From a virus, in the IMG/VR virus record IMGVR_UViG_3300044639_001363, positions 1 to 39,474 of that record: a DNA stretch of 39,474 bases, one strand, 5' to 3'. Positions 5,379 through 17,161 of this stretch are shown here, piece by piece; position 1 is the first letter of the stretch; the number at the start of each line of letters is the position of its first letter. The notes under the pieces are model-generated. The model saw only the letters and a list, made by a program, of their open reading frames with translations. It ran no database searches and had not been told where the DNA came from. A program made the translations under genes and the position numbers.

Positions 5379-7870
5379 GATTTTACACTAATGTTCAATT
5401 GATTGGAAATCAATTTTTAGTTCGTGGAGTAGATAATGGTAAAAGGTTTGAAACAAGAGATGAGTTTTTTCCGACTCTTTATGTGAAGACTAAAAAAGAA
5501 TCCAAATATAGGACATTAAGTGGCGAATTTGTTGAACCAGTTAATCCAGGAACAGTTAGAGACTGTCGTGAGTTTTATAGTAAGTATGAGGGCGTAGATG
5601 GATTTGAAATCTACGGCAATGACAGATATATCTGTCAATATATTTCAGAAAAATATCCAGAGGATGAAATCAAGTTTGATATTAGTAAAATTAAGCTTGT
5701 AACTTTGGACATTGAGGTTGCATCTGAAGAGGGATTCCCTGACGTTGAATCTTGTTCAGAAGAAATCCTTTCAATTACAATCCAAGACTATACAACTAAA
5801 AAAATTATTACTTGGGGTGTTAAACCATTTAATAATGCACGTAGGGATGTAACTTATCATCATTGTCCAAGTGAGTATGAATTGCTCAGTCATTTCATCA
5901 ACTATTGGATGGTAGATGTTCCTGATGTTGTGACTGGATGGAATATTCAGTTGTATGATATCCCCTATATCTGTAAGAGACTAAACCGTGTTCTTGGTGA
6001 GAAACTAATGAAACGTTTCTCTAACTGGGGACTTGTAACTGAGGGTGAAATATTCATCAATGGGCGCAAGCACACAACATTTGATGTTGGTGGTTTGACT
6101 CAACTTGATTATTTGGATCTTTATAAGAAGTTTACTTATAAAGCACAGGAATCATATCGCCTTGATTATATTGCTGAGGTTGAACTGGGTCAGAAAAAAC
6201 TGGACCACAGTGAGTTTGATACATTCAAAGACTTTTACACCAAGGGTTGGCAAAAGTTTATCGAATATAACATCATTGACGTAGAACTTGTTGACCGTTT
6301 GGAAGACAAGATGAAACTCATTGAACTTGCTTTGACGATGGCATATGACGCTAAAGTAAACTATGCTGATGTGTTTTATCAAGTAAGGATGTGGGACAAC
6401 ATCATTTATACATATCTCAAAAAAAGGAACATCGTAATTCCTCAAAAGAATAAATCATCAAAGGACGAAAAGTACGCGGGGGCGTATGTCAAAGAACCGA
6501 TTCCTGGGTTATATGATTGGGTGGTCAGTTTTGACCTTAATAGCCTTTATCCCCATCTTATTATGCAGTACAACATCTCTCCAGAAACACTATTGGAAGA
6601 GAGACATCCAAAAGTTAATGTTGATAAAATTCTGAATAAGGAACTTACATTTGAGATGTATAAAGACTATGCGGTATGTGCAAATGGTGCAATGTATCGT
6701 AAAGATGTTCGTGGATTTCTTCCTGAGTTGATGGAGAAGATTTACAATGAACGTGTAATCTTCAAAAAGAAAATGCTTGCGGCAGAGCAAGAATATGAGA
6801 AGACAAAAAACAAGGAATTAATCAAAGAGATTGCTCGCTGTAATAACATTCAGATGGCACGTAAGATTCAACTTAACTCTGCCTATGGTGCTATTGGAAA
6901 TCAATACTTCCGTTATTACAAACTAGCAAATGCTGAAGCGATTACTTTTTCTGGACAAGTATCCATTCAGTGGATTATGAATAAGATGAATTCTTATTTA
7001 AACAAAGTTCTTAAGACTGAAGGTGAAGATTATGTCATTGCATCTGATACTGATTCTTTGTATATTAATATGGGTCCTCTGGTTGAAAGTGTATTCAAAG
7101 GCAGAGAGAAAACTACTCAAGGCATTGTTTCGTTCCTTGATAAGGTCTGTGACTTGGAATTTGAAAAGTATATTGAAAGTTCTTACCAAGAATTGGCTGA
7201 CTATGTGAATGCCTATGATCAAAAGATGTTTATGAAGCGAGAGTGTATTGCTGAGCGTGGTATTTGGACGGCGAAGAAAAGATACATTTTGAGTGTATGG
7301 GATAGTGAAGGTGTTCGTTATGAAGAACCTAAACTCAAGATTAAAGGTATTGAAGCAATCAAATCTTCTACTCCTGCACCTTGTCGTAAAATGTTGAAGG
7401 AATCATTCAATATTATGATGAGTGGTAGTGAGGATGATATGATTGAATTTATTGAAAATTGTCGCAATAAGTTTAAAAAACTATCTCCTGAAGAGATTTC
7501 TTTTCCACGTTCTGCATCTGATGTTCAAAAGTATTCATCTTCTGCAGACATTTATATAAAAGGAACTCCCATTCACGTCCGTGGTGCATTGTTGTTTAAT
7601 CATTATATAAAACAAGGTAAACTAACTGGTAAATATTCTCTTATTCAAAATGGAGAAAAGATTAAGTTTGTTTATCTTAAAAAACCAAATATCATTCACG
7701 AAAATGTAATTTCTTTTATTCAAGATTTCCCAAGGGAACTTAACCTTGACAAGTACATTGATTATGAGTTACAATTTGAGAAAGCATTTCTAGAACCTCT
7801 CAAGATTATTCTTGATGTTATTGGATGGAATGTAGAAAAAACTGTAAACCTTGAACTCTTTTTTGCCTAA
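5375..7870 (+). CDS. 43: Family B DNA polymerase, gp43-like
   Basis: This 831-aa replicative polymerase carries both activities expected of T4 gp43. The 3'-5' exonuclease motif I DIE is at residues 112-114. Polymerase motif A (DLNSLYP) starts at D387, motif B (KIQLNSAYGAIGN) at K497, and motif C (DTDS) at D558-D560. It is somewhat shorter than T4 gp43 (898 aa), as is usual in cyanophages. The last residues (LELFFA) would form the clamp-binding tail. The ATG overlaps the previous stop and the TAA overlaps the next ATG. No intein, intron or split is seen. Confidence 0.97.
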   Translation: MRFYTNVQLIGNQFLVRGVDNGKRFETRDEFFPTLYVKTKKESKYRTLSGEFVEPVNPGTVRDCREFYSKYEGVDGFEIYGNDRYICQYISEKYPEDEIKFDISKIKLVTLDIEVASEEGFPDVESCSEEILSITIQDYTTKKIITWGVKPFNNARRDVTYHHCPSEYELLSHFINYWMVDVPDVVTGWNIQLYDIPYICKRLNRVLGEKLMKRFSNWGLVTEGEIFINGRKHTTFDVGGLTQLDYLDLYKKFTYKAQESYRLDYIAEVELGQKKLDHSEFDTFKDFYTKGWQKFIEYNIIDVELVDRLEDKMKLIELALTMAYDAKVNYADVFYQVRMWDNIIYTYLKKRNIVIPQKNKSSKDEKYAGAYVKEPIPGLYDWVVSFDLNSLYPHLIMQYNISPETLLEERHPKVNVDKILNKELTFEMYKDYAVCANGAMYRKDVRGFLPELMEKIYNERVIFKKKMLAAEQEYEKTKNKELIKEIARCNNIQMARKIQLNSAYGAIGNQYFRYYKLANAEAITFSGQVSIQWIMNKMNSYLNKVLKTEGEDYVIASDTDSLYINMGPLVESVFKGREKTTQGIVSFLDKVCDLEFEKYIESSYQELADYVNAYDQKMFMKRECIAERGIWTAKKRYILSVWDSEGVRYEEPKLKIKGIEAIKSSTPAPCRKMLKESFNIMMSGSEDDMIEFIENCRNKFKKLSPEEISFPRSASDVQKYSSSADIYIKGTPIHVRGALLFNHYIKQGKLTGKYSLIQNGEKIKFVYLKKPNIIHENVISFIQDFPRELNLDKYIDYELQFEKAFLEPLKIILDVIGWNVEKTVNLELFFA

Positions 7871-8034
7871 TGGATTTGCCTATTAATGATAAAGAATTGG
7901 ATACTATTGTAAAAGCACTTGGGTTTGGTGGAGATGCTGCATTGTATCACAAACTGAAACTAGTAAAAGAACTTAGGGAACAAGGTTTACCTTATAAAAA
8001 AATACTTCGTGAAGAATATGGGATGGTGGCTTGA
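7870..8034 (+). CDS. 54-aa protein between gp43 and uvsX
   Basis: The ATG at 7870 shares a base with the gp43 TAA, and its TGA overlaps the uvsX ATG. The product starts [14 protein letters not shown] and is mostly helical: [21 protein letters not shown], then [16 protein letters not shown]. There is no Cys, no membrane segment and no family I recognise. The tight coupling on both sides supports a real gene. Confidence 0.7.
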
Positions 8035-9038
8035 TGGACTTTCTTAAAGATATTGTAAAAGAAATTGGTGACGACTTCACCAAATTAGCATCAGACATTG
8101 ATGAGACTGAGACTTATGTTGATACTGGTTCGTACATTTTTAATGCACTGGTTTCAGGTAGCATATTTGGCGGTGTATCTGGCAATAAGATTACTGCTAT
8201 TGCTGGAGAGTCTTCTACTGGAAAGACTTTCTTTTCTCTCGCTGTGGTTAAGAATTTTCTTGATATTCACCCCGATGGTTATTGTCTCTACTTTGATACT
8301 GAGGCCGCTATTACCAAATCACTTATAGAATCTCGTGGAATTGATACTACTCGTCTGGTTGTTGTTAATGTTGTTACTATCGAAGAGTTTCGTACAAAGG
8401 CACTCAAAGCGGTAGATATGTATTTGAAAGCACCAGTAGAAGACCGCAAACCTTGTATGTTTGTATTGGATTCTCTGGGTATGCTTTCTACAAGTAAAGA
8501 GATTAATGACGCATTGAATGAGAAGGAAGTTAGGGATATGACTAAATCTCAACTTATCAAAGGTGCGTTTAGAATGTTAACCCTCAAACTAGGTCAAGCA
8601 AATGTCCCGCTCATTGTCACAAATCATACATATGATGTCATCGGAGCTTACGTACCAACTAAAGAAATGGGAGGAGGTTCTGGACTCAAGTACGCAGCAA
8701 GCACGATCATTTATCTCAGCAAAAAGAAAGAAAAGGATGGAACAGAGGTGGTCGGCAATATTATCAAAGCTAAGACTGCTAAATCGCGTTTGAGTAAGGA
8801 GAACAAAGATGTTGAAGTCCGTCTGTATTATGATGAGCGCGGTCTTGATCGTTACTATGGTCTTCTGGAACTTGGTGAGATTGGTGGACTCTGGAAGAAT
8901 GTAGCGGGACGTTACGAGATGGATGGTAAGAAAATCTATGCTAAGCAAATTCTTTCTAATCCAGAAGAGTATTTCACTGAAGAAGTGATGCAAAAACTTG
9001 ATGAGATTGCAAGAGAAGAATTTAGTTACGGTAAATGA
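8034..9038 (+). CDS. uvsX: UvsX RecA-like recombinase
   Basis: This 334-aa RecA/Rad51-family recombinase forms filaments on single-stranded DNA and drives strand exchange and recombination-dependent replication in T4. Walker A GESSTGKT lies at residues 58-65; Walker B lies in [11 protein letters not shown] (about 141-151). A later [14 protein letters not shown] segment matches RecA loop L2 and the strand that follows. I use the ATG at 8034, one codon inside an in-frame TTG at 8031, because it overlaps the preceding TGA. The TGA overlaps the next ATG. Confidence 0.95.
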
Positions 9039-9577
9039 TTAAAGTTTTAAAAACTGAAATCAACGTATCTAAAGTTGTAGAACAACTCAAGAAATATCCA
9101 CAAGACTGGGACCACCAAAAACATCTTAAAGATTCTCAGTCTTTGGTTGATAGGGGATTTGCAGACTTGCCAGTAAGTGCTCTTCAACTTATAATGGGTG
9201 GAGTTAAAAGCAAAGAAGACTTTGTTGGAGACTCTGAAATTAATATCAAGACTCCCGCATACGAACATCACAGTGAAATAAGAAAGATTATACGCAAGCA
9301 CTTTGGAAATGTAGAACTACATCGTTGTGGATTTCTTTCTTTACCTGTTGATGAAATTGTAGGAGCACATATTGATGAGGGAACTTACTATCAAACAAGA
9401 GATAGATATCACCTTTCTATTCTTGGTAGATATCAGTATTTCTGTGGAACAGACACAGTGATTGTTGAACCAGGGACTCTTTTGTGGTTTAATAATAAAT
9501 TACCTCACGGCACCGTTAATATTGGTGACGAGACTAGAATAACGTTTGTATTTGATATACCGCATGGAACAAGTTGA
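9035..9577 (+). CDS. 2OG-Fe(II) oxygenase, Asp/Asn beta-hydroxylase-like
   Basis: This 180-aa protein has the iron-binding H-x-D pair (H112, D114 in GAHIDEG) and a distal histidine (H158 in LPHGTVN). R168 (ETRITF) is placed to bind 2-oxoglutarate. The order and the [13 protein letters not shown] block fit the aspartyl/asparaginyl beta-hydroxylase-like branch of the 2OG-Fe(II) family. Such enzymes hydroxylate proteins or small molecules; the substrate here is unknown. It sits between uvsX and the helicase gene, overlapping the former by 4 bases and the latter by 14, so it is expressed with replication proteins. Confidence 0.85.
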
Positions 9578-10940
9578 GTTTCTTATTCTTCGCAACCTTT
9601 TGCATAATGAAGAATATGTCCGTAAAGTAATTCCTTTTCTTAAGTCTGAATACTTTGAGGACACTAATCAGAAGATTGTATTTGAGGAAATTCTGAAATT
9701 TATTCAGGAATATAATGAACCCGCTACAAAAGAAGTTCTTTGTATTGAAGTAGAAAAGCGTCAGGATATCAATGATACTTCTTTCAAAGAAATCACTCAT
9801 TTGATTGGATGTCTTGATGATGTCCCTGCGGAGTTTAATTGGTTATGTGACACAACTGAAAAGTGGTGTAGAGATCGTGCCATCTATCTTGCTCTTATGG
9901 AATCTATTCATATTGCAGATGGAAAGGATGAAAAGAAAAATCGTGATAGTATTCCTAGTATTTTGTCAGATGCTTTGGCAGTATCTTTTGATACTCACAT
10001 CGGACACGATTATCTGTTAGACTATGAACGACGTTATGAGTCCTATCACAAAAAGGAAGACAAAATTGAATTTGACTTAGAATTCTTCAACAAAATCACA
10101 AAAGGTGGTTTACCTAATAAGACTCTCAATATCGCTCTTGCTGGTACGGGTGTTGGGAAATCGCTGTTTATGTGTCATGTGGCTAGTTCCGCCTTGTTAC
10201 AGGGCAGGAACGTACTCTATATCACTCTTGAAATGGCGGAGGAGCGAATTGCTGAGCGAATTGATGCCAACCTTCTCAATGTCCCAATTCAGGATATTGT
10301 AGAACTACCAAAGCAGATGTTTGAGAGCAAGGTCACCAATCTTGCAAAGAAAACTCAAGGTACACTTATAATTAAGGAATACCCTACAGCATCTGCTCAT
10401 GCTGGCCACTTTAAGTCACTTCTCAATGAACTTGCACTTAAGAAGTCATTTAGACCTGATATTATTTTCATTGATTACCTTAATATTTGTTCTTCCAGTA
10501 GGTATCGGGGAAACAGCAACATCAATTCTTATACGTTTGTCAAAGCAATTGCTGAGGAACTTAGGGGGCTCGCCGTCGAGTTTAATGTCCCAATTGTCTC
10601 CGCTACTCAGACCACTCGTTCAGGTTATGGTTCTTCTGATGTTGAACTTACTGATACTAGTGAGTCCTTTGGTCTTCCTGCTACTGCTGACCTTATGTTT
10701 GCCCTTATTAGCACTGAAGAGTTGGAGGGACTTGGACAGATTTTAGTGAAGCAACTGAAAAATCGTTATAATGACCCAACCATTCATAAGCGTTTTGTGA
10801 TTGGTATTGATAGGGCAAAGATGCGTCTTTATGACTGCGAACAATCTGCTCAACAAGATATCCTTGACAACGGAAAGGATGAAGAGTATGATTATGAAGA
10901 AAAGAAACCTAAAAAATCATTTGAAGGATTTAAATTCTAA
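9564..10940 (+). CDS. 41: Replicative DNA helicase, gp41/DnaB-like
   Basis: This 458-aa hexameric 5'-3' helicase partners with the gp61 primase. Walker A is ALAGTGVGKS with the lysine at residue 199. Walker B (IIFIDYL) and DnaB-family elements (ITLEMAEERIAERIDAN; SATQTTRSG) follow. I choose the ATG at 9564 ([13 protein letters not shown]); an in-frame start at 9546 would add six residues deeper into the oxygenase gene. Length is near T4 gp41 (475 aa). The C-terminus is acidic then basic (DEEYDYEEKKPKKSFEGFKF). Confidence 0.95.
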   Translation: MEQVEFLILRNLLHNEEYVRKVIPFLKSEYFEDTNQKIVFEEILKFIQEYNEPATKEVLCIEVEKRQDINDTSFKEITHLIGCLDDVPAEFNWLCDTTEKWCRDRAIYLALMESIHIADGKDEKKNRDSIPSILSDALAVSFDTHIGHDYLLDYERRYESYHKKEDKIEFDLEFFNKITKGGLPNKTLNIALAGTGVGKSLFMCHVASSALLQGRNVLYITLEMAEERIAERIDANLLNVPIQDIVELPKQMFESKVTNLAKKTQGTLIIKEYPTASAHAGHFKSLLNELALKKSFRPDIIFIDYLNICSSSRYRGNSNINSYTFVKAIAEELRGLAVEFNVPIVSATQTTRSGYGSSDVELTDTSESFGLPATADLMFALISTEELEGLGQILVKQLKNRYNDPTIHKRFVIGIDRAKMRLYDCEQSAQQDILDNGKDEEYDYEEKKPKKSFEGFKF

Positions 10941-11680: not shown

Positions 11681-11688
11681 TATAAATA
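11681..11688 (+). promoter_or_regulatory. Late promoter, perfect TATAAATA
   Basis: An exact T4-type late -10, 20 bases before the ATG at 11709. It is followed by CCTAAAAAAGTAT, part of a short imperfect inverted repeat (ATACC..AGTAT) also seen in related form after the late promoters at 12661 and 26014. Confidence 0.8.
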
Positions 11689-12584: not shown

Positions 12585-12657
12585 GGGGATATAACTCAGT
12601 TGGTAGAGTGTCTGCTTTGCACGCAGGAAGTCAGGAGTTCGAGTCTCCTTATCTCCA
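12585..12657 (+). tRNA. tRNA-Ala (anticodon TGC)
   Basis: Acceptor stem GGGGATA pairs with TATCTCC (one G-T pair). Anticodon stem TCTGC/GCAGG encloses the loop TTTGCAC, giving anticodon TGC. T-arm AGGAG-TTCGAGT-CTCCT. The 3' CCA is not encoded. It is the only tRNA in the late block, with its own early-type promoter. Confidence 0.95.
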
Positions 12658-13545: not shown

Positions 13546-14853
13546 ATGAAGAGTTTTTTCAAATTTTTGTCTGAAGCATCAGAATCGCAAGCAGCAATGC
13601 AGGCGAAGAAACTTGGATTGCGCGGAGACGGCCACGGCGGATGGGTAGACCGTGCTGGAAAGTATGTTGCAAGAACTGATAAAGGAAAACTCAAATTCAT
13701 TGATGGACGCCAAGCGGCACAACAAGAACTAGGAGCAGCAAAACAACCTACAGGAGCTGCACCCACACCACAACCAAAAGCATCGCCGCAAGCACCTGCA
13801 TCTGCATCTCCTAAAGCATCAAAAGGAGCATCAGAGGAGCAAGCACCAGAAGATGGCGATACTATCACTATCGTATTTGGAAGATTTAATCCCCCCACAG
13901 TAGGGCACGAAAAACTCTTAAAATCAGCAAAGAGAATTTCTACTGGTGGTGCAATTAAAATTTATCCATCAAGAACTCAAGATCCCAAAAAGAATCCTTT
14001 GGATCCAAATACCAAAGTTTCTTATATGAGAAAGATGTTCCCCGAATTTGGTGAAGTAATCATTAATGATCCAGATATGAAGTCTATCTTTGATGTTTTG
14101 GTAAATGCAGATAAAGATGGATATTCAAATGTAAATATTGTAGTTGGATCTGATCGTCAATCTGAATTTGAAAATCTTGCACAAAAGTATAATAATGATC
14201 TTTATCAATTTGATTTGATTCGTGTTGTTTCTGCTGGTGTAAGAGATGCTGATGCGGAAGGCGTGGAAGGTATGTCCGCATCCAAGATGAGAAAAGCGGT
14301 AATGGATGATGACTTCCAATCTTTCAGAAGGGGAACACCAAAAACTCTTGATGATGGGGACACACAAAATCTGTTTAATTCTGTTCGTCAAGGAATGGGT
14401 GTAAAGAAATCAAAACTTAAAAAAGAAAGTTACAATCTTTGGGAAATCGCTCCAAAGTTTGATCAAAGAACTCTTCGTGAAAATTATATTGCAGGAAAAA
14501 TTTTTAGAATTGGTGATAAAGTTCAAAACTTAAATACTGGATTAATTGGTGAAGTAATGCGTAGAGGAACCAATTATCTTATTTGCGTCACTGAAGATGG
14601 AAATATGTTTAAATCTTGGATTAAAGACGTGATGGAATATACTGAAGTGAAAATGGAAAGAAAAATGAGAGTACCGGGAAAACCGAATACATTAGTAGGA
14701 ACTGGTGGATATTTTAAGTATGCAGTTGATATGACGCCAGGATTTAAAAAAGGAGATAAAACCAATCTTCAGTATGGTGCAAAATCATATAGTGGATATA
14801 AACAATCTAGTATAAAGGAATTCCTAAATAAGTATAAGGTAAAAAGTAAGTAG
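13546..14853 (+). CDS. Nucleotidyltransferase with a T4-like capsid-targeting N-terminus
   Basis: I use the ATG at 13546 because it is correctly spaced from the late promoter and yields [14 protein letters not shown]. This resembles the capsid-targeting leader of T4 internal proteins (MKTYQEFIAE), with L8-S9-E10|A11 matching the gp21 site. An Ala/Pro-rich linker (about 55-100) leads to a nucleotidyltransferase core: [16 protein letters not shown] (about 109-124) is a variant of G-x-F-N-P-x-H-x-G-H, with Thr in place of the first His. [12 protein letters not shown] resembles the ISSTxxR loop. NMN adenylyltransferase-like or cytidylyltransferase-like activity is possible. The C-terminal ~120 residues are unassigned. 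A head-packaged enzyme is inferred. Confidence 0.75.
14824..14830 (+). promoter_or_regulatory. Late promoter candidate (CTAAATA) inside the 3' end of the upstream gene
   Basis: CTAAATA lies within the last codons of the nucleotidyltransferase gene, 30 bases before the ATG at 14861, and would drive the 636-aa protein. Confidence 0.6.
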
Positions 14854-14860
14854 AATTGCA

Positions 14861-16771
14861 ATGTCCACCAATCCTCTGAATGATATTTCCCGAGTTTATC
14901 TGGAACAGATCGCTGCTGTTGAAGAAGGTGTGAGACCTACTCCAGTTGATAAACCACTTGATAAAGCAGCGTTCAAAAAACGTAGAAGAAGTCTTGTCGG
15001 AAAAGAGAAAAGTGCAGAGGCAAGATCGAGAGGGCACGAAGGTAAAGAATGGTATAACAGTGGAAGAACTTATAGTCCTGATGAAGCAAAGAGAATGCGT
15101 TCAAAACTGGATGATGAAGAAAGAAGTACAAGACATCGTAGTGCTGTAGACCCTGAGGGTGATGATAGTAACTACTCTGCAGATAAAACAAAAAATCCAA
15201 AGAAACTCCGTAAGCAAAAAGCAATGGGAGAGTCTGCAGTTCCTGGAAAACCAGCAGAACGTCTTGGTGCAGTAAGTGCTATTCCAAAAAGTGAGCAAGA
15301 TGCTGCAAGAGAAAGAACCCTTGCAAAAGCTGCTGCAATCAGAGCAAAAAAAGGTATCACTCAAGAAGGTCTTGACCCTGTAGGTAAGGAAGATGCTGAT
15401 GTTGATAATGATGGTAAGAAGACCAAGAAAGATAAGTATCTTCTAAATCGCAGAGAAGCAATTGCTAAAGCAATTTCAACTCAAGAAGCACTAGACCCAG
15501 TAGGAAAAGAGGATTCTGACATTGATAATGATGGTAAGAAGACCAAGAAAGATAAGTATCTTCTAAATCGCAGAGAAGCAATTGCTAAAGCAATTTCAAC
15601 TCAAGAAGCACTAGACCCAGTAGGAAAAGAGGATTCTGACATTGATAATGATGGCGATGTAGATAAGTCGGACAAGTATCTTCATAAGCGTCGTAAGGCA
15701 ATTGGCAAAGCAATTGCAAAGGAGGGATATTCGAATTGGAGGCAAGATCTTTCCGAAGTAATTAAAGATACTGAAACCGAAAAGAAAATTACCGAAAAGA
15801 AAGTTAATAATAAAATTGTAATCAATCCAAAATTAGATCTTGGTGAAGCAGTAGAAGAAATGGGCGGAACTCTTCTTGAAATGGTAGAGATTGATGAAAT
15901 GGATTATATTCTTGAAAGTGTTTATGATGAACTTTTAGAAGAAGGATATGAGGAAGATGATATCGAAGAAGCGATTGAATATTCATTAACTGAAGCAAAA
16001 GTAACCTTCGGTCACGATACTGCTCCCGCAAAGAAGAGAAGTGGATTAATGACTGCTGCAAAAGCAAGACTTTCTTCTCTTAAGAAGTCTGCAAAACAGG
16101 CAGTAGCAACTGGAGCAAGGAAAGTTGCTAAAGGTGCATTGGGTGTTGCTCGTAAGATGGAATCTGGCGATAAAAAACCACGTACCGCAGCAAGAAAACC
16201 ATCAACTTATCGTGGTGCTGGTGTAGGAACAAAGGAAAAAGTAAGCAGTGGATCTTACAAAGCACCTGAGAAGAAGAAGACAGAACCAGTTTCTGATCCT
16301 TGGGAAGGCAGTTACAAAAAGTCTTCTGAGGTAAAAGCAAAACCTAAAAAAGCAGCTGCACCAAAAGCAAAGGCACCTGCAAAAAAGAAAAGAACTAGTA
16401 AGTTAGATGCTCTTCTTGCTGATGTTAGAAAAGAAGAAGTTCAACTTGCTGAAAAAACTCTGACTACTTCTGAAACCAAAAAGAAAGAAGAAATTGTAAA
16501 GTCAATGAAGGACAAGGCAGCAGACTTTGAGAAGAGATATCCTGGTCGTGGTAAAGAAGTAATGTATGCTACTGCCACTAAGATGGCCAAAAGGATGACT
16601 GAGCAGGCAATGGAACTTCAACCTAAAAATCAGTCACAACCACAACAAGATCCCAAAGCAAAGGTAGCAGTACAGAGAGCAAAGTCTGCAGAGATTAATA
16701 TTCTCCAAAAAAGACTTCAAGCAATTCGTCAAACACCAGCAGGAACAGCAGTTACTGGGATTGGAGGATGA
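14861..16771 (+). CDS. Large late repeat protein with DxDNDG motifs
   Basis: This 636-aa protein is extremely rich in Lys, Ala, Glu and Asp and opens [20 protein letters not shown]. Three repeats of about 40 residues (roughly 170-290) each contain LDPVGKED followed by D-x-D-N-D-G, then [17 protein letters not shown]. The D-x-D-x-D-G spacing resembles EF-hand/dockerin-type calcium loops. A later segment ([20 protein letters not shown]) resembles the acidic domain of the protein at 11709. A long Lys/Ala/Pro tract follows. The end ([18 protein letters not shown], then a [10 protein letters not shown] helix) is a module I recall from cyanophage virion proteins. It is probably a head-internal or structural protein; no enzyme motif is seen. 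Confidence 0.75.
15402..15654 (+). repeat. Near-perfect tandem duplication, 120-bp period
   Basis: Bases 15402-15534 are identical to 15522-15654, a period of 120 bp (40 codons). A third, diverged copy of the coding unit runs on to about 15725. Such nucleotide identity implies a recent in-frame duplication inside the 636-aa gene. Confidence 0.95.
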
Positions 16772-17147: not shown

Positions 17148-17161
17148 GGTCTCCTTTTTTT
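17131..17161 (+). terminator. Intrinsic terminator
   Basis: AAGGGGA (17131-17137) pairs with TCTCCTT (17150-17156) with one G-T pair, followed by a T-run to 17161. The T-run merges directly into the late promoter TATAAATA (17161). Confidence 0.75.

Follow-up and report, generated by a model that had tools for sequence, protein, structure and literature searches.

Could an enzyme of nucleotide metabolism be carried inside the head of a T4-like phage? The question is raised by an ORF at positions 13546-14853 (+ strand, ATG start) whose 435-aa product joins a nucleotidyltransferase to an N-terminus resembling that of T4 internal head proteins. The window, meaning the whole stretch of DNA analyzed, is an IMG/VR fragment of 39,474 bases. 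The isolates closest to it, Bellamy, S-SRM01 and S-SCSM1, are T4-like Synechococcus cyanophages, and the source of the ORF is a T4-like cyanophage. Metabolic enzymes appear in the particles of cyanophages according to published proteomes, and two of these papers leave undecided whether they are cargo or contaminants.

Gene and domain organization

The structure of the enzyme was modeled with AlphaFold2 from 73 sequences. The model begins with a helix, behind which come a small beta module (pLDDT ~86 at residues ~20-52), a disordered stretch at 57-102, an alpha/beta domain (105-285) with pLDDT mostly around 90, and a small beta domain at 320-364. Linker residues 56-98 have the highest variation among 60 distinct close homologues (entropy 1.94 bits). 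The C-terminal beta domain also stands as a gene of its own in P-HM1 (PHM1_163). The features are collected in Table 1.

Table 1. Features of the enzyme gene and of the surrounding island, in positions of the window
Feature	Start	End	Strand	Remarks
Island neighbor	11709	12515	+	ATAAATA at 11682; homologous in part to gp089, a virion protein of S-SCSM1
Island neighbor, phrog_22045	12689	13510	+	No leader; orthologue SSM1_188 in S-SM1
T4-type late promoter element AATAAATA	13519	13525	+	27 nt before ATG
Capsid-targeting-type leader	13546	13575	+	Cut predicted between E10 and A11 (codon 13576-13578)
Module, residues ~14-55	13585	13710	+	Matches phrog_3561, cluster C kinases and S-CREM2 gp12; pLDDT ~86
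Ala/Pro/Gln low-complexity linker, residues 56-103	13711	13854	+	Top entropy; pLDDT 31-36
Adenylyltransferase-fold domain, residues 104-288	13855	14409	+	phrog_395; PPAT/NadD fold; motif conservation
Small C-terminal beta domain, residues 320-364	14503	14637	+	Strands at pLDDT ~88
Island neighbor, Asp-rich dockerin-like repeats	14861	16771	+	Homologous to S-SCSM1 virion protein gp280
Island neighbor	17204	17728	+	TATAAATA at 17161; 61% identity to gp277, a virion protein of S-SCSM1

Catalytic domain

The assignment to the nucleotidyltransferases made in the preliminary description was confirmed. The PHROGs family of phage cytidyltransferases, phrog_395, matches residues 98-402 with an E-value of 4.6e-106. 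The top structural matches of the alpha/beta domain are phosphopantetheine adenylyltransferases (PPAT; Z 14.2, rmsd 2.9, 156 residues aligned), about equaled by NadD-type enzymes (Z 12-13), and the Foldseek E-value is 1e-5. Besides the fold (residues ~104-287, Z 12-14), the enzyme shares with PPAT (CoaD) and with NadD, NadM and NMNAT both signature motifs, (T/H)xGH and S-x-x-K-x-R. These are found as T-x-G-H at residues 118-121 and SASKMR at 244-249, so that an adenylyltransferase fold, an (H/T)xGH motif and an S-x-x-x-x-R motif are all present. Across 73 diverse homologues there is no or almost no change at G112, R113, N115, P116, H121, S244-K247 and R249, and this conservation suggests that catalysis is retained. 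The enzyme differs from these families in its low identity to their structures (10-17%), in scores under every family cut-off and in its extra N- and C-terminal modules.

No curated substrate-specific model of NCBIfam passes its cut-off. The NMNAT model TIGR01526 gives 16.4 bits against a cut-off of 341, and the PPAT model TIGR01510 gives 14.6 against 103.3 bits, despite a fold match as good as that to NadD. The S-SM1 homologue reaches 16.5 on TIGR00482, for which the cut-off is 112. Pfam CTP_transf_like also scores under its cut-off, and the full-length sequence, used as query against the PDB, gave no match.

The T-x-G-H motif had earlier been read as a change from H-x-G-H and as the mark of an unusual reaction, a reading that we abandoned. 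Phosphopantetheine adenylyltransferases normally carry T-x-G-H. Within the phage family the position alternates between H and T, with PPHKGH in S-CREM2 and PGHLGH in S-CRM01, which are thus of the H-x-G-H form, and PPTVGH in S-SM1.

A leader of the T4 internal protein type

T4 ipII and ipIII both start with MKTYQEFIAEA. The enzyme has a 10-residue leader that agrees with theirs at K2, the aromatic residue 4, F7, the aliphatic residue 8, E10 and A11, the last being the residue after the cut, and it resembles them also in its late expression, as suggested by the promoter. Unlike the small basic proteins of T4, the mature part is here a 425-aa enzyme, and a further module of ~40 aa lies behind the leader. 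M1, K2, F4, F7, L8, E10 and A11 are fixed in 60/60 distinct close homologues, and positions 3, 5, 6 and 9 vary (0.8-1.8 bits). These positions are invariant, too, in a second clade (~47% identity, 58 distinct members), where position 6 is fixed as well and position 5 almost so. When g127 of S-CRM01 (43%) is added to the alignment, M1, K2, F4, F7, E10 and A11 are still invariant. In T4, mutants of the IPIII leader trace targeting chiefly to residues 4 and 7, and processing to 8 and 10 (PMC9026906), and the invariant positions coincide with the residues singled out there.

The preliminary description had proposed a T4-style capsid-targeting leader ending in the protease rule L-x-E/A (the slash marks the cut), and had named homologues devoid of a similar leader as grounds against it. 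The leader is kept in the 60 and 58 homologues, its fixed positions equal the T4 determinants, and L8, E10 and A11 are invariant in the close homologues; both parts of the proposal stand. Homologues from an Erwinia jumbo phage and from P-HM1 are leaderless, so the leader is a feature of the lineage and not a component of the enzyme fold.

Codons vary synonymously at most fixed leader positions, which indicates selection on the amino acids and rules out a constraint on DNA or RNA. A Sec-type signal peptide was also rejected, as no hydrophobic stretch long enough for one was seen on inspection.

A pattern of fixed positions was built from those of T4, M..[FYL]..[FY][LIVMF].E. It heads 11 of the 1072 ORF starts in four cyanophage genomes, where 0.44 would be expected from shuffled N-termini, a 25-fold excess. 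Judged from sequence, the T4 parallel in the 435-aa enzyme is not due to chance. The window is without capsid genes, and relatives stand in for it with regard to the protease. S-SCSM1 has a prohead protease of the Peptidase_S77 family (E 2.5e-35), and its gp23 reads SFLAE/A where T4 gp23 is cut (SFLTE/A); FLSE/A in the leader fits both the site and the protease.

Late promoter and neighboring genes

A late promoter before the nucleotidyltransferase, as first described, was verified by comparison. Of the 60 distinct homologues, 56 have ATAAATA <=45 nt upstream and four carry CTAAATA at the same place; among background windows, ATAAATA occurs in 12 of 540. The second clade has no ATAAATA directly upstream, and the promoter is therefore not universal. 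Every ATAAATA copy in the window (8/8) is on the + strand, and four of the eight directly precede ORFs in an island at 11.5-17.2 kb; their count is not enriched (8 against 15 expected), and strand and placement alone are informative. The late promoter of cyanophages is NATAAATA (PMC2984593), and this promoter points to late expression of the enzyme.

Among the island neighbors, ORF 11709 starts with MDPKELRGLLE/A, which has an L-x-E/A site without the aromatic pattern, and no capsid-targeting sequence (CTS) was found at the N-termini of ORFs 12689 and 14861. The N-termini of ORFs 11709 and 14861 share another signature, also present in gp132 of Pelagibacter phage HTVC008M, which may possibly represent a second type of head targeting. 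Inside ORF 14861-16771, positions 15359-15654 hold ~2.5 tandem copies of a 120-bp unit with a weakly dockerin-like product. There is a tRNA-Ala(TGC) at 12585-12657 within the late-gene island, and S-SCSM1 has a tRNA-Ala in the matching position.

The leader on other cyanophage proteins

In S-CREM2 the leader pattern was found on gp6, gp12, gp13, gp14, gp136 and gp154, all of them virion proteins detected by MS. The first is a SAM hydrolase/lyase (PF23780, E 2e-19), and gp12, gp14 and gp154 are annotated as Cas9, kinase and cytidylyltransferase. The pattern used for the following count allowed more residues after E10, a loosening made with the N-termini already in view. Virion proteins account for six of its eight genome-wide matches, compared with 52 of 221 annotated features (Fisher p 0.0025). 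The two other matches are the small gene gp71 and a site without an annotated gene on its strand.

The distant S-CRM01 (cluster C) carries the pattern on a kinase gene, the cytidyltransferase g127, g129, g33, which adjoins the terminase genes, and a GNAT acetyltransferase. One report places the kinase in the S-CRM01 virion (PMC10665884). A search for relatives of g127 returned S-CRM01 itself only. The GNAT acetyltransferase (139045-139440) has the leader MKTFDEFLTE/G and TATAAATA upstream, and is predicted to be a head-packaged enzyme; no virion report was found for it. In several leaders of S-CREM2 and S-CRM01, E10 is followed by F, Q, E, D or K and not by A, G or S, which makes cleavage less sure for these proteins. 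In S-SCSM1, a hypothetical protein of 106 aa (gp030, 44215-44535) has the leader MKTFKQFMSE/S and is not labeled as a virion protein.

The module at residues 14-55 recurs in part on kinases (S-N03, E 9e-10; S-CREM2, E 1e-5) and on S-CREM2 gp12 (E 2e-7). The latter, annotated Cas9 (OR473000.1 7704-10313), has no Pfam match. It forms one family, phrog_3561, with ACG-2014f gp185 (7682-10360), which is annotated as a cytitidyltransferase. Both names look wrong, and that of gp185 probably derives from the shared N-terminal module.

Orthologues in virions

The presence of orthologues in virions is already published, and hence is not new. Under the name cytidyltransferase/NMNAT, the orthologous gene product was reported in virions of S-SM1 (T4-GC190, gene SSM1_190; PMC3037559), S-SCSM1 (ORF91, 58% identical to the enzyme; PMC9602691), S-SZBM1 (S-SZBM1_140; PMC9146016) and S-CREM2 (ORF154; PMC10665884). 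An NMNAT-like virion protein of S-CBWM1 is also cited in those papers. The leader is found on each orthologue compared, those of S-SM1, S-SCSM1 and S-CREM2; the accessible portions of the proteome papers name no targeting leader for the orthologues.

The parallel with T4 Alt drawn in the preliminary description holds in part. Carriage of an enzyme in a T4-type head is consistent with these reports from four cyanophages, in two of which contamination is possible, and the likeness covers packaging only, since Alt is an ADP-ribosyltransferase of unrelated fold and chemistry. Alt is processed at both ends, by loss of a 7-residue propeptide from the N-terminus and by a cut at the C-terminus (PMC9026906).

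The protein could be packaged through its leader and yet serve as a structural or scaffold-associated head protein, with an activity that is incidental or lost, and be no injected effector. Sullivan et al. class T4-GC190 as a structural protein (PMC3037559), the enzyme carries extra small domains, and it is surrounded by virion proteins of no known enzymatic function; in S-SCSM1, the syntenic neighbors of the orthologue are virion proteins too. We consider this unlikely, given that the catalytic signature is kept across the 73 diverse homologues.

Less likely again is that an ordinary metabolic enzyme, made late and in abundance, ends up as a contaminant of virion preparations, its N-terminal helix being a domain or solubility feature that has nothing to do with packaging. 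The authors of the S-CREM2 and S-SCSM1 proteomes concede that contaminants are possible in CsCl-purified virions (PMC10665884, PMC9602691), and only 2-3 peptides of the orthologue are given for S-SZBM1 (PMC9146016) and S-CREM2 (PMC10665884). However, unrelated proteins detected in virions bear the same leader, its fixed positions equal the T4 CTS determinants, and the leaderless homologues show that the catalytic domain does fine without it. Least probable is that the enzyme, in parallel to Alt, adenylylates a protein or RNA and synthesizes no cofactor, for although that macromolecule modifier is among the packaged T4-like enzymes of known function (PMC9026906) and none of the small-molecule family models fits, adenylyltransferases acting on small molecules have this fold and these motifs.

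Proposed role and significance

The explanation that we favor, and regard as probable, joins what was computed here or published (the conserved leader, the late promoter, the fold, virion reports of orthologues, and other virion enzymes with the leader) to steps that we infer, namely cleavage, a position within the head, injection and the substrate. The gene would be transcribed late from its NATAAATA promoter. Residues 1-10 would act as a T4-type capsid-targeting sequence, binding the prohead core through K2, F4 and F7. After cleavage past L8-x-E10 by a gp21-type protease, the mature enzyme, starting at A11, would lie free among the packaged DNA. The enzyme would then enter the cell with the genome and be active before phage gene expression. 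As an adenylyltransferase of PPAT/NMNAT fold, it would most likely serve to synthesize or replenish a nucleotide cofactor, either NAD+ or a dinucleotide. This leader would likewise sort a SAM lyase, a kinase, a large nuclease-annotated protein and probably an acetyltransferase into cyanophage heads. Replenishing NAD+ or a related cofactor as infection begins, to counter defenses that deplete NAD, is a plausible role in view of the modeled fold and of published NAD+ salvage by phages (PMC9503650).

Black's review suggested that the CTS may allow T4-like phages to load various proteins (PMC9026906). No description of capsid targeting or of propeptides in cyanophages was found in a literature search that covered few of the subscription journals. 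A sorting code common to several virion enzymes looks to be the new part of this work. More broadly, T4-like cyanophages may possess an interchangeable cargo code, in which a CTS leader, often followed by the ~40-aa module, is placed on varied enzymes. These would be packaged and then injected as a set for early takeover of the host, and further cargo could be predicted from the leader; on this wider proposal our judgment is evenly balanced. By sequence comparison, its scope would take in leader and module on the adenylyltransferase, the Ser/Thr kinase and the Cas9-annotated protein, and the leader alone on the SAM lyase and the GNAT acetyltransferase.

A leader that fits the mapped T4 targeting residues and is common to unrelated enzymes detected in virions offers a candidate mechanism for the presence of such enzymes in particles, and turns the choice between cargo and contaminants into a testable question. 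It may also serve as a sequence rule that predicts which proteins these abundant aquatic viruses bring into cells, among them a SAM lyase, which could pre-empt restriction.
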